From a virus, in the IMG/VR virus record IMGVR_UViG_3300047276_000161, positions 1-34,647 of that record: DNA of 34,647 bases. The stretch is one strand, 5' to 3'. The number at the start of each line of letters is the position of its first letter. Position 1 is the first letter of the stretch. Below, in pieces: positions 2,887 to 22,906 of this stretch. Both the position numbers and the translations under genes were made by a program. The notes below the pieces were generated by a model, which saw nothing but the letters and a program-made list of their open reading frames with translations, was not told the origin of the DNA and did not search any database.

Positions 2887-3354
2887 TTAGACATAGGCTT
2901 TGAAAGAAAGTGGATTGCTCGTGACCTTCGAGATCAGTTCGTGATCGTTCAGAGTCATGAAAAGCACGGGGTCTTCTTTGTCATCCTCGCCTGGGACACG
3001 GATTTCCCAGCGATCACCACCCCATTTGGGCACTCGCACATAGTCTCCAACCTGGGCCCAGGTGCCCTCAGGCCATGGTTGCATGGTGTCTCGGTTCTTA
3101 AAGGCCAGCGGCCCAATTTGAACCACCTTTCCGATCATGTTGTTCCACTTCTCGTTCTCTTTAGTCTCCTCCACTAGGATAATCTTCCCAGCAGTCTTGC
3201 GCTTGATACGACGAAGTTGAATGATGACACGACCACCAAAGGGCTCCATGCCAGGTTGGACATCAGGAAACGCCCACGCCAGTTCTTCTGGGTCGGGCGC
3301 ATCGTACGATGCCTCAAATGCAACAATGTGTTGCTTCTCTTCTACAAGGTTCAC
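2887..3354 (-). CDS. GroES-like (Cpn10-type) co-chaperonin
   Basis: A 155-aa protein starting at GTG 3354 with a good SD (AAGGAG). After about 38 residues of N-terminal extension it shows the Cpn10 pattern: PFGGRVIIQLRRIKRKTAGKI (rigid beta-barrel entry), then IILVEE, then GKVVQIGPLAF, then VGDYVRVPKWGG near residue 115. Known Cpn10 proteins are about 95-110 aa and cap the GroEL folding chamber through a mobile loop; phage versions (T4 gp31 is the classic) adapt host GroEL to fold the capsid protein. Its position between portal and scaffold supports a capsid-folding role. The extended N- and C-termini are unusual. Alternative: a generic beta-barrel virion protein. Confidence 0.65.
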   Translation of the reverse strand: MNLVEEKQHIVAFEASYDAPDPEELAWAFPDVQPGMEPFGGRVIIQLRRIKRKTAGKIILVEETKENEKWNNMIGKVVQIGPLAFKNRDTMQPWPEGTWAQVGDYVRVPKWGGDRWEIRVPGEDDKEDPVLFMTLNDHELISKVTSNPLSFKAYV

Positions 3355-8449: not shown

Positions 8450-11400
8450 TCCTTGTTCTCGGGGAAGAAGTATGACTCAGCGTCACCAACACTTCCACCC
8501 TGCTTAAATCCAAAATCCTTCTTGTTGAAGGGCTCGATGCGAGGCAGGTCAGACACACCCGCCTTTTTGTTGATGCGCTCCACCTCATTGTGACTCAGCA
8601 CCCTGTTGACTTTCATCGACCCGCCAATCAGCCAGTTGCCAGTCATGTTGGGGTTCGTCTTGTAGCGGTAATGACCGCCCTTGGGTATTTGATCAGTGAT
8701 GTGGGCATTTACCGAAACCACTTTGCCCTTTTTGTTCGTGCCACGCTTGTTGGCCTCTGCTTGCCAGTCAACATCGTTGGGCATCTCTACTTCGGCCCAC
8801 ACATGATGTCGGGGGCGATAGTCGGGCTTCTTGAGGCTGTTGTCCGTTTTCTCTCCGATATGGGTGGCAACAGGCAGGTCGCCTGCATGCCAGCCTGGAC
8901 GGTAGGCCAACGGGCCGATCTTAGATTTGACCTTGCCTTTGTCGTTCTGTGCGCCTACCTCGGCGTCCACCCACTTGTTCATCTCGACTGGCTTGTTGGC
9001 GTTGACGAACAGAGGGAACAGTTTTCCTGGTTGCTTTTCGTCAGCACGAAACAGTTTGTAGGCCTTGACGGTGCTCTTAGGTTCTTTGGAGACCCTGCCG
9101 CCTTTGGCCATGCCAGGTTTCAATTTATTAAGTAACAGGTCACTGTGCTCCTGTTTCGTCAGATATTCGCCTTGGCCAACCGCATCCAACTCCTCAGGAG
9201 AAAACTTGTCGATCAAGTCGCTCTTACGCACCAGGTCAGTGTTCTTGAAGTCACCGACACTTGACCATTGACCTTGACGCACAAAGTCCTGCACGAAGGG
9301 GATGTACTTGGCCTTGGGCTTGGCGTTTTGCTTGCCCTTGATCTGCTTGATGGCTGGGGGTTGTGATTTAACCCACCTGTGATATTCAGGCATATCACCA
9401 GGCTTGATACCAGATTCATCAATTTGCAATTGTTGCTCTGGGCTCAATGTATTCAACCAAGCGCCTGGAGACGTGTTGTCTGTTTTGGGCCTGACCTCAA
9501 TGGTCACATGGGGCTCGTTATTCTCGTCACGCAGGCTGAAGATGCGGGTGCGCCCAGCCATGACATCGTCGGTGTACCCGCCAGTCCTGGTGCCATCGGG
9601 TTGCCGTTGCCCACCGACGCAGTGACCCATGATGTCGCTCTCATAGGCCAGGGCGTCTTTAACAGGTTTCTCGAGCCTATCGCTGAGTTTGTGGTCTTTC
9701 TTGTAGGCCATCTCGAGCGCCTCTTGCTTGGTCTCGCCAAGGTGAACACGGCCCCGATCAGGAGCCAGGATGCTCTTGCCAGACAGGCGCTCCAGGCCAG
9801 CCTTAGGCTCGAGCCACTCGTACCCTTCGGGCAGTGGATCGTTGAGATCAGGCTTCTTGGGAGCGATCTCGATCCACTTGAACCCGTTGCCGTAGTCTTT
9901 GTGAACGGGCATGCCCTCGGTGGCTTTGGCGCTTGCCTCCTGCATGGCCTTCTTGTTTGCCAAGTCCACCTCGTAGGCACGGCGCACCGCTCGCTCGATG
10001 CTGACATTGCTCAACTGCTCGGGACTCAGGCGACCAGACGCCAAGTCATCTTTCAGGACATCAACCAAGTGGTCAAACCCAAGTTCTCTAGCCCCATACA
10101 ACTCGTACACATTGGTCTTGGGGTCGGCCTTTTCCATCCAGGGCTCCTGGAGGCCCCTGTACAGGTCTGGGCTGTTGATGATGTCCTCGACGCTGTTGGG
10201 CTCAAAGGTCGAGTCGACGGCGTCTTCCCAAGCCTGGGCGTGTTCACTCTTGCCCAACTTCTCCCCGCCCAACATCTTCCTGCGGTCGTCTCCATGAATG
10301 CCCTGCTCCTCGAGCAGGTCGGGTGACATGTGCAGGATGCCCTGCTCTGCCAGTTTACGCACGGGGTCGTTGGGACTGCCCATCTGCTTGCGGATGTAGT
10401 TCGCCAGGTTGCGCTCGATCCATTGATTTAAATGATGGTGATGGAGAGATCGTTTGTATTCTTGTTGAATTTGTTGTTTGGCCGCTTGACCAAGGTTTGG
10501 GTTTTGCAACGCCCTTTCATACAACTCGGGGGGATCAATGTTTTCGCTGGTGTCTTTCAGCGGATCGACGATCTTCTCCACGGTGCCCTTGAGGAAGTTG
10601 CGGGGGCCCTGCCCACCAATGGCAAAGCGCATCACATCTTGGCTGGGCTGACCGCCATGAGAGAAACCAGGGTAAAAATCAATGCTCCGCTCCCTGGGGA
10701 ACGACCCTTCGGTGACCTCGCCCAGGGCCATGTCAGGGTCAAACGGGCGCTCGAAGGGCTTCAGGCCCACACCACGGCGCATGGCGTTGCGGATGTGGAA
10801 GATGGCGGCGTCAGCATTGCTCTCGCCCACACCGCTCTGGTATCCAGGCTGTGATGTCGTGCGGCGCACATTCTTCTCGAGGGCCTCGACCCCAATGCGG
10901 CCCATCTTGCGAAAGGGCAGGGCCGTGTCAATCGCACGGTCGACCACGGGCATCACCTTCTGTTGGATGCGCTCGGTGACGGTCGGCTCCTTCTGCCCAA
11001 AGCCAAAAGCCTCTTCGGCGCTCATAGAGCCACCTTTGCCCATTTCAATTGACCCGCCATCAGCCTTTACCGCCTTGGCAAACGCTCTGCCAGCAGATGT
11101 CAGGTCAGTGCTGTGCTTGACATCAAAGTCCTGTCGTGCCCTCTCAAGCAATCTCGATGCAATACCTTGACGACGGTTGGCTTCAGCCACATACAGGTTT
11201 TGGATCACGGCCTTTTTGCTTCGTGGCCCCATGGTCTGAATCTGCATGGCCCCAATCGGTTTCTTGTCATCGCCGTGGTACAGATAACGGTACGACTTCT
11301 TGCTCGAGGGGAACTCGGACAGGCCATGCGAAAAGGTATCGTCTTGCGATAGCAAGCGTTCGTCTCCAACCATCTTTGACGATCCGATGGGTTGAAGCAG

Positions 11401-20515: not shown

Positions 20516-20534
20516 AGTCTAACACAAAGTTAGA
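20516..20534 (-). promoter_or_regulatory. Early promoter/operator site 3
   Basis: TCTAAC-ACAAA-GTTAGA at 20518-20534, with extended -10 TGTTAGACT on the minus strand; no clear -35. The TAA stop of the upstream 75-aa gene lies inside the operator (20532-20530), so termination of one gene and initiation of the next share bases. It precedes the 151-aa gene by about 38 nt. Confidence 0.6.
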
Positions 20535-20757
20535 CAATTGTGATTGTTGATGTTGACCGTTCAATGGCCATCTTTCCTTCGCACTCCATGTTCCAGTCAA
20601 CACCGTTGGGGTCTTGGGCTGTCCTGGCCACGGTTTGGATCACCACCGCCTTGCACAGCCACTCTTTGCCCGTCTCGTCGAACACCCGCCATTTGTGGTC
20701 GATGGTGCCCCGCCCAGGCTGACCCGCCGTCTTGTTGTACCTGATCCTGTACTTCAC
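20530..20757 (-). CDS. Small beta-rich protein (75 aa)
   Basis: The start is taken at GTG 20757, whose GTGA overlaps the stop of the oxygenase gene; the longer upstream frame is inside that gene. The product (MKYRIRYNKTAGQPGRG) has an alternating hydrophobic/polar pattern and one Cys (KEWLCKAVVIQ), and ends CEGKMAIERSTSTITIV. Function unknown. Its stop is inside operator 3. Confidence 0.5.
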   Translation of the reverse strand: MKYRIRYNKTAGQPGRGTIDHKWRVFDETGKEWLCKAVVIQTVARTAQDPNGVDWNMECEGKMAIERSTSTITIV

Positions 20758-21377: not shown

Positions 21378-21404
21378 CTTTTTCTCTCCTGAATTGACCC
21401 AATG

Positions 21405-21434
21405 AGTCTAACACTGAGTTTGATTTCTGTTCAA
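21405..21434 (-). promoter_or_regulatory. Early promoter/operator site 4
   Basis: An imperfect copy, TCTAAC-ACTGA-GTTTGA at 21407-21423. On the minus strand -35 TTGAAC (21434-21429), 18-nt spacer, extended -10 TGTTAGACT. It lies about 28 nt before the oxygenase ATG. The best-spaced of the set. Confidence 0.65.
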
Positions 21435-21717
21435 AAAAAATCGGGCCGCTCACCCCTTTTTTGTCTCTCTCTATCCTTTCACCCAAAGACCCCCCTACCC
21501 CACAGCGTAGGGTAGAGAGGGAAGGTGCTTCACCCCTGTTGAACAGGATCATCATGCGACGGATTGGATACCGTCTGCCCCTCGGCTTGATGATTCGACC
21601 AGCCGCACGGATTATTCGGGAACTGCCCCCTAGCCTTGCGGCATACCGTGTACCCTTTTCTTCCACGCCCCCAGGTTGAGGTCTTACTTTCGTGTGGAGT
21701 ACGGCAGGCCTGGAAAT
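21424..21717 (-). other. Gene-free, hairpin-rich segment beyond the ncRNA
   Basis: No convincing gene on either strand; the only open frames are short, lack good SDs and have unnatural composition. Minus-strand helices include a nested one at 21541-21597 (ATCATCA/TGATGAT outside GACGG/CCGTC), a GCC-GCAA-GGC hairpin near 21637, CCTGTT-G-AACAGG at 21535-21547, and a 6-bp stem CCCTAC/GTAGGG at 21494-21513. A T8 tract lies at 21432-21439. It could be a 3' extension of the ncRNA, or a replication origin. Confidence 0.35.
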
Positions 21718-21844
21718 GCAAAAAGGCTGTTTAGTCTGACCCCGTTGGAACCGCCAGTCCTTTTTGGGGACGGGCCACCCCTCACGGGGTCGGGATCAGG
21801 CTAAACAGCCTTCATGTCTTGCATCGGGTTCCAAGCCTAGCAAT
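21718..21844 (-). ncRNA. Candidate pseudoknotted phage non-coding RNA (about 125 nt)
   Basis: Read on the minus strand from the predicted start near 21844. P1 5' arm TTGGAACC (21834-21827); 14-nt linker; P2 5' arm of 12 bp plus 9 bp (21812-21791) with one C-A mismatch and one G-U; hairpin A ACCCC-GTGA-GGGGT (21790-21777) with a GNRA loop; hairpin B (21775-21753); P1 3' arm GGTTCCAA (21752-21745); P2 3' arm (21744-21723); then a T5 tract. The core is contiguous with no unpaired bases between elements except one G. P1 crossing P2 forms an H-type pseudoknot. A consensus promoter lies just upstream. No known family recognised. Confidence 0.6.
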
Positions 21845-21850
21845 GAGCGA

Positions 21851-21880
21851 ATTTTAAAGAAATCCGAAAAACCTTGTCAA
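21851..21880 (-). promoter_or_regulatory. Sigma70-type promoter for the candidate ncRNA
   Basis: Minus strand: perfect -35 TTGACA (21880-21875), 18-nt spacer, -10 TAAAAT (21856-21851; one mismatch). The -35 overlaps the TGA of the primase gene. It lacks the TCTAAC operator and so would not be under the early-repressor control seen elsewhere. Confidence 0.6.
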
Positions 21881-22749
21881 CTGTGCAAACTCTCCTTTGC
21901 TCGACATTCCATGATCTTGGCGACCACGGCAAACAGGCCCTTCCTGGCATGCAAGTCGTTGGCGTCCATCCCGACCTCGTCAGCCATCGTCCAGGGTAGG
22001 CCAGTGGCCTGGGCCGACTTCTCGCCCGTCTTGCTCTCGTCGTTGTCTGCGAACACAAACCGCTTGCCAGGTATCTGGTCAGCCACCTGGATCAAATTCG
22101 AGGCGCTGAAGCACACCACCACCGACCCAGGCAGTCCGACGCTCCTGAGGGCGTTCCTGACGCTCAGGCCCGTGGCAAAACCCTCCACCAGCCACGCCTC
22201 GCCAGAATCCCTGTTGCCCATATACAACACCGCATTCTTGGCCCTCATGCCCGTGAGCATCTTTTTCTCGTACTTGCGCTCCTCGGGCATCCAGCGGATC
22301 GACTGGTAGCCCTGGAGTTTGTTGGTCACAACATTTCGCATCGGGATCAGCAGGCGGTCGTCCAGCACCAGGCCCTTCTCGTCTTTGAACCCCTTCATCT
22401 CGAGGTAAGGATGGTGGTCAGGCTTTGCCGAGCGCAGGGTAGCGTCAGCCTGGATGGCGGCTTGCTGGTAGCGGTGCTCCTGCTCAGTGGCCGCAGAGGC
22501 CCTTTTTGCGGCCCACAGGCGCTTTTCGTCCTCAGTCCAAGGTTTGGCATTGGGATCGTTGTACCAAACGACCCTGGCCTCTCCTGACCAGTCCATGACC
22601 CAGCCACGCTGACCGTCCCAGAAGTAGGCCCCGTTGCCCGAGCGAGGCTTCTCGACGGTGCCGCACCGCTTGATCTTGTCGGACGGGTACAGGCGGCTCG
22701 GATCGATCTCGACATTGTGGGCCCGTGCAAAGGTGATGAAATCAGTCAT
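21877..22749 (-). CDS. DNA primase with Toprim domain
   Basis: The start is placed at ATG 22749, 7 nt from GGAG; GTG 22755 and ATG 22752 are alternatives. The 290-aa protein has an N-terminal region with FWDGQRGWVMDWSGEARV, a middle helical segment, then a Toprim core: AWLVEGFATGLSVRNAL (catalytic Glu near 189), VVVCFSASNL, and RFVFADNDE (Asp235, Asp237). This matches phage/plasmid primases of the Toprim type that lay down replication primers. No C-terminal helicase domain is present. It lies between the helicase/HTH cluster and the ncRNA locus. Confidence 0.75.
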   Translation of the reverse strand: MTDFITFARAHNVEIDPSRLYPSDKIKRCGTVEKPRSGNGAYFWDGQRGWVMDWSGEARVVWYNDPNAKPWTEDEKRLWAAKRASAATEQEHRYQQAAIQADATLRSAKPDHHPYLEMKGFKDEKGLVLDDRLLIPMRNVVTNKLQGYQSIRWMPEERKYEKKMLTGMRAKNAVLYMGNRDSGEAWLVEGFATGLSVRNALRSVGLPGSVVVCFSASNLIQVADQIPGKRFVFADNDESKTGEKSAQATGLPWTMADEVGMDANDLHARKGLFAVVAKIMECRAKESLHS

Positions 22750-22906
22750 CATCACTCTCCATTTCTTTGAGCATCTGGTTCAACGCCATCATCTGTTTGC
22801 TCTTTTCCATGCATTGTGCATGAAGTATGTTCATTGCCTCGTTCAAGGCTTGCGTAGCCCCATACAATTCAATGATTTCTTCTTTAATTTCCTGTTTGGT
22901 TTTCAT
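22742..22906 (-). CDS. Small coiled-coil protein (54 aa)
   Basis: A 55-codon frame from ATG 22906 (AAGGAAAGTAC SD) to TGA 22744-22742, overlapping the primase start by 8 nt and the HTH gene's end by 23 nt in another frame. The product (MKTKQEIKEEIIELYGATQAL) is a regular amphipathic helix with Met-rich repeats (SKQMMALNQMLKEM) and an acidic tail. It could oligomerise or modulate the adjacent regulator; unproven. Confidence 0.5.
   Translation of the reverse strand: MKTKQEIKEEIIELYGATQALNEAMNILHAQCMEKSKQMMALNQMLKEMESDDD

Follow-up and report, generated by a model that had tools for sequence, protein, structure and literature searches.

The window analysed here is the whole 34,647-nt stretch of an IMG/VR virus record (IMGVR_UViG_3300047276_000161). 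On its minus strand a DNA primase gene is followed by a promoter, a small RNA of about 125 nt that ends in an intrinsic terminator (RNA1), and a second structured RNA (RNA2), as listed in Table 1. An earlier note on this DNA had described the first of these as a candidate phage non-coding RNA in a gene-free gap, and each element that it named lies on the minus strand where it had been placed. The gap does hold no recognisable protein genes, but it is not otherwise empty, as it contains RNA2. The promoter matches the consensus at 11 of 12 positions and is the sole promoter-like site within 3.5 kb; shuffled sequences average 1.4 such sites, so the match alone is little proof. The exact TTGACA is, however, kept in 26 of 27 relatives, with spacers of 16–19 nt.

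Table 1. Features of the RNA1 locus in the window.
Feature	Position	Strand	Basis or remark
DNA primase gene, immediately upstream of RNA1	21877..22755	-	PHROG DNA primase, E 4.5e-28
Promoter of RNA1, sigma-70-type, TTGACA-N18-TAAAAT	21851..21880	-	motif match and conservation in relatives; -35 TTGACA 21880-21875, -10 TAAAAT 21856-21851
RNA1 (family A), ~125-nt pseudoknotted small RNA	21720..21844	-	folding, covariation, covariance model
P0, 5' hairpin	21819..21843	-	TTGC 21843-21840 with GCAA 21822-21819; loop bears pseudoknot 5' arm
Pseudoknot 5' arm TTGGAACC, the P0 loop	21827..21834	-	exact complement of 3' arm
P2 5' arm, 12+9 bp, one conserved mismatch	21791..21812	-	covariation
P3 hairpin ACCCC-GTGA-GGGGT (GUGA loop)	21777..21790	-	96% paired, nearly invariant
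P4 hairpin, variable, A-rich loop	21753..21776	-	all 7 modelled pairs covary, 86% paired
Pseudoknot 3' arm GGTTCCAA	21745..21752	-	directly abuts 3' arm of terminator helix
P2 3' arm, the terminator helix	21723..21744	-	covariation
U-tract (T5) of intrinsic terminator	21720..21724	-	T5 or longer in relatives
RNA2 (type 2a), structured element after RNA1	21450..21704, ends approximate	-	covariation; not in Rfam

Further along the window, a promoter-like element, TGTTAGACT (21400-21440), lies ahead of a 2OG-Fe(II) oxygenase gene and occurs in relatives too. It shares TCTAAC/GTTAGA-type sequences with a palindrome, GTCTAACA-CAAAG-TTAGAC, at 20517-20535. A GroES-like co-chaperonin is encoded among the structural genes (2887-3354, minus strand; PHROG, E 4e-9).

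The fold of RNA1 is largely as previously drawn. The two 8-nt pseudoknot arms are exact complements, the 12+9 bp stem closes around a single mismatch and encloses two hairpins, one with a GNRA loop, and the RNA ends at T5. What had been overlooked is the 5' hairpin P0, whose loop is the pseudoknot 5' arm. RNA folding of the 129-nt stretch with RNA1 gave -60.9 kcal/mol (z = -5.3), a value matched by none of 200 shuffled sequences.

To place RNA1 among its relatives, viral contigs were searched with the window primase, which returned 67 loci, many with a diverged RNA1 copy directly downstream on the same strand. A covariance model (R1) built from 27 family-A relatives gave expected-strand matches of 85–121 bits in 40 of 70 sequences searched, training members matching by construction; the window RNA1, itself in the training set, scores 97.4 bits with cmsearch. 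A DNA pattern of the terminator arm found 43 stretches, different phage lineages included, and about 47 family-A instances were read in all. In an alignment of 47 sequences, two-sided, compensatory changes occur at 33 of the 47 base pairs, which is the support that had been named in advance for this RNA. Two-sided cells number 323 against 103 in shuffles. Of all cells, 92.8% are paired; shuffling lowers this to 78.6%, and sliding the partner to 52% or less. In the same sequences P2 (20 pairs, 13 with two-sided changes) is 99.9% paired, the pseudoknot 93.9% and P4 85.8%; in relatives, P0 has two-sided changes at all 6 outer pairs. As this alignment was fitted only to the nested helices, with the pseudoknot left out, the pseudoknot count is independent of the fit. 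With an independent MAFFT alignment, pairing was 99.8% in P2 and 93.1% in the pseudoknot. When 27 RNAs were parsed separately, pseudoknot loops scored a mean of 7.8 with their own partner and 6.0 with swapped partners, and the own-partner pseudoknot was clear in 26 of the 27, that of L031 being weaker. Since relatives maintain the fold by covariation and keep TTGACA, RNA1 lies far beyond chance, as had been claimed.

Selection acts on the minus-strand RNA, because P2 holds 39 G-U against 4 A-C pairs, the latter confined to one position that is mismatched in 26 of 27 RNAs. This mismatch (window 21800 with 21735), which itself looks conserved, is mostly T-T, with four C-A, and could perhaps block RNase III or bind a protein. 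A MITE or plain inverted repeat is excluded by the kept promoter, pseudoknot and U-tract together with the RNA-strand G-U bias. A small ORF was likewise rejected: among the relatives compared, indels break the frames and none is shared. With its own promoter and terminator, no ORF and a covarying fold, RNA1 has the features of a stand-alone structured phage small RNA, as judged from sequence comparison.

We found no support for the switch that had been suggested, in which ATGCAA (21824-21819) would pair with TTGCAT beyond the terminator. ATGCAA includes the GCAA that serves as the 3' arm of P0, whose equivalent covaries in relatives, and TTGCAT is not conserved, relatives mostly having TTTGTTTTCC or similar. 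Nor is any alternative pairing of the terminator arms better than in shuffled sequences: the longest helix of the 5' segment measures 5.0 with P2a (5.5 shuffled) and 6.6 with P2b (6.7 shuffled). RNA1 thus lacks the conserved terminator-breaking pairing that defines a riboswitch or attenuator. An antisense role, also among the functions first listed, looks unlikely, as there is no conserved unpaired seed.

Database searches assigned RNA1 to no known family, as the earlier note had expected of what appears to be a discrete new phage RNA gene with promoter, pseudoknot and intrinsic terminator. Rfam 15 gave no match in the window at the gathering score; permissive matches were noise, the best at the locus being mir-662 (14.9 bits, where the gathering score is 88). 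The Betaproteobacteria-1 RNA model (RF02932) matches neither RNA1 nor the RNA2 of the window, and no tRNA or tmRNA was found in the window. With a family-A relative as blastn query, the only DNA relative in phage and plasmid collections was MW202545; RNA1 families B and C (below) had none there. A match to a Massilia genome (L117, 32 bits) proved to be just a CCCCGG inverted repeat, and opposite-strand R1 matches (about 16–45 bits) are a product of the palindromic helix. A ToxI-like type III toxin-antitoxin RNA was set aside, RNA1 being present in a single copy in the window with primase and 2OG-Fe(II) oxygenase as neighbours, and RNA1's own terminal terminator speaks against a put-type cis antiterminator of the HK022 kind.

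Shortly past the RNA1 U-tract, on the same strand and with no evident promoter of its own, comes RNA2, which follows RNA1 in 234 of the 240 loci where sufficient sequence was available. For type 2a, 18 sequences gave 52 consensus pairs, 98.6% paired and 17 with two-sided changes, with G-U outnumbering A-C by 157 to 7. RNA2 falls into five clusters of recurrent sequence, single linkage merging types 2a and 2b, and each cluster is found behind more than one RNA1 family. In nine relatives tested (L009, L016, L019, L021, L025, L031, L036, L055 and L057), RNA2 is Betaproteobacteria-1 RNA, matches among the relatives' RNA2 scoring 91–107 bits. Three distant relatives, Acidovorax phage AP1, L061 and L063, carry an RNA2-like sequence right after the primase with RNA1 absent, so that the two RNAs need not occur together.

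Several further structures accompany these RNAs. In some RNA2a copies (L044 ~1990-2190, L075 ~8755-8930) a GATGATGG/CCATCATC stem closes off a large additional domain, which in L044 looks tRNA-like. The gap between primase and RNA1 holds a recurrent hairpin like CCAACACGCATGGGGA...TCCCCAGCCGTGTTGG, sometimes in multiple copies, in L023, L012, L038 and L040, and several tRNA-like sequences in L070 (7090-7720). ARAGORN identified tRNA genes in L066 and L068.

Sites that lack family A hold other RNA1 families, B, C, D and E, which also occur in the replication regions of other phages. These have little or no sequence similarity to family A and follow the same plan. Each has a promoter and a 5' hairpin, a loop whose complement lies close to the 3' end, and a helix that forms the terminator. 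In D and E, represented by very few sequences, the plan was judged by eye. Family B (~147 nt) was found by pattern scans in 84 stretches, with about 82 instances read, and family C (about 95–130 nt) in at least 120. Among the family C matches listed there are 104 distinct RNAs with 24 different loop sequences, and in 102 of the 104 the loop forms 7 bp with its own partner; with swapped partners the figure is 3.4%. By eye, family B RNAs (L044, L012, L019) show an apparent second pseudoknot after P0 (CACAG/CTGTG, CTAGG/CCTAG and CAGTG/CACTG). The shared plan could partly reflect distant homology instead of replacement by unrelated RNAs. Weak R1 matches to families B and C (21–34 bits) were not accepted as proof of homology, and the scores of about 30 bits that bear on kinship between A and C compare with the 45 bits that palindromy alone reaches on the wrong strand.

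The most direct view of how these RNAs replace one another comes from closely related phages. L025 and L026 are ~97% identical across primase and promoter, diverge from the transcription start, just after the -10, for ~390 nt, and return to 96% identity beyond RNA2; the divergent part holds a family-B RNA1 with a Betaproteobacteria-1-type RNA2 in L025 and a family-A RNA1 with RNA2a in L026. Divergence begins at the same point in L035 and L044, while in the pairs L055/L057 and L068/L002 RNA1 differs and RNA2 is kept. On the primase tree the RNA1 family requires 14 changes, where the minimum possible is 5 and shuffles average 18.7, which indicates that RNA1 is inherited over short spans and often swapped. 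Genome comparison thus establishes that phages replace RNA1 together with RNA2, or only RNA1, by RNAs that are unrelated in sequence but built to the same plan, a pattern that by analogy resembles immunity, incompatibility or counter-defence determinants. The earlier observation was right but understated: RNA1 is one of several interchangeable families, with a second RNA downstream.

In other lineages the cassette precedes a ParB-helicase-primase operon (L093, L097 and L099) or, in L116, two genes named by eye from sequence, one HNH-like and one for a TOPRIM primase-helicase-like protein. Neighbours that recur across all loci are primase, helicase, a ParB-like protein, Sak annealing protein and replication initiators, and further PD-(D/E)XK and YqaJ nucleases, RusA and another Holliday junction resolvase. 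Given that the nearest isolate relative infects Paracidovorax and that two MAG relatives are betaproteobacterial, the hosts are probably betaproteobacteria.

These data allow us to propose a model for RNA1. Sequence comparison shows it to be a stand-alone small-RNA gene of freshwater phages, which the sigma-70 polymerase of the host would transcribe from the gene's own promoter to its own terminator. In the compact fold the loop of the 5' hairpin docks on the strand beside the terminator helix, so that both ends of RNA1 are locked. RNA1 comes first and RNA2 second in a cassette of the replication and recombination region. We infer that RNA1 is expressed as a discrete RNA and that its shape lets it act in trans, most probably by engaging a protein as ligand or decoy, either a phage replication protein or a nucleic-acid-binding protein of the host. 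The reasons are that neither a conserved unpaired seed nor an alternative fold is seen, and that the exchange is like that of immunity or counter-defence determinants. The chances that this swappable cassette acts through RNA1 in trans, as a likely protein ligand or decoy, seem to us about evenly balanced. We would advance with more reserve, as a rather unlikely extension, that the several RNA1 families and few RNA2 types make up an RNA-based specificity system of the replication region, diversified by cassette exchange, which might serve superinfection immunity, incompatibility or counter-defence.

The position of RNA2, on the same strand shortly after the U-tract and without an evident promoter, would fit an attenuated leader equally. 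Here RNA1, a strong promoter plus terminator, would be a terminated leader made constitutively, and a phage antiterminator or leaky termination would let transcription run on through RNA2 and further, an arrangement like that of the lambda late promoter. This is a serious possibility though not the probable one: no conserved alternative pairing would release the arms of the terminator, RNA1 is swapped without RNA2 (L055/L057, L068/L002), RNA2-like sequence occurs without RNA1 in AP1, L061 and L063, and a plain terminator needs neither P0 nor a covarying pseudoknot. The cassette could also be a replication origin or control element, with RNA1, or its transcription, regulating or priming initiation and RNA2 serving the neighbouring primase as a structured origin or as a signal for single-strand initiation. 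It adjoins primase, helicase, ParB-like or replication-initiator genes, upstream or downstream, in different phages, and we count in favour of such a role that the lambda pO promoter affects replication (PMC12197685). The promoter, U-tract and strand-specific G-U pairs nevertheless point to a function of RNA1 as RNA; a primase-specific signal should not tolerate the free swapping seen beside near-identical primases, and three distant relatives do without RNA1. We therefore consider an origin improbable, and both of these readings weaker than a cassette acting in trans. Known phage small RNAs work by base pairing (PMC12197685), and the size, promoter and terminator of RNA1 are typical of such regulators. 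A regulator of the oop, sar or c4 type that base-pairs with an mRNA of phage or host is nonetheless very doubtful, with no recognisable coding gene opposite RNA1, long conserved stretches only inside helices, and a loop that pairs with its own RNA and varies among relatives.

Near-identical phages that swap RNA designs at the same promoter provide a natural experiment on RNA1 function, and the selection behind the swap should reveal its role. RNA1 is an uncatalogued phage RNA that is common and very well supported by covariation, and the RNA2a of the window, a strongly covarying RNA outside Rfam, is a finding in its own right.

Among known systems, the lambda PR' leader (6S) RNA combines a strong promoter, a short RNA, a terminator and further transcribed DNA. 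The RNA1 locus is similarly a strong promoter, a short RNA and a terminator followed by more DNA, but we know of no conserved pseudoknotted fold or cassette swapping for the PR' leader. STAXI motifs are repeated pseudoknots in tandem near DNA-handling genes, whereas RNA1 has no Rfam match and occurs once, with a promoter and a terminator. The c4 antisense RNA (RF01695) is, like RNA1, a structured phage small RNA; RNA1 differs in having no Rfam match and no indication of an antisense mechanism. Lambda oop is a short, terminated small RNA with its own promoter in the replication region (PMC12197685), and RNA1 is likewise; oop is antisense to cII, whereas no recognisable gene lies opposite RNA1, whose defining feature is its covarying pseudoknot. 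RNA1 does not match Betaproteobacteria-1 RNA (RF02932), and the RNA2 of the window is a different, uncatalogued type, but in many relatives this RNA is the RNA2 behind RNA1, so that RNA1 adjoins a catalogued motif. Betaproteobacteria-1 RNA is in turn placed in a phage cassette, as its second RNA, and the two can be tested together.
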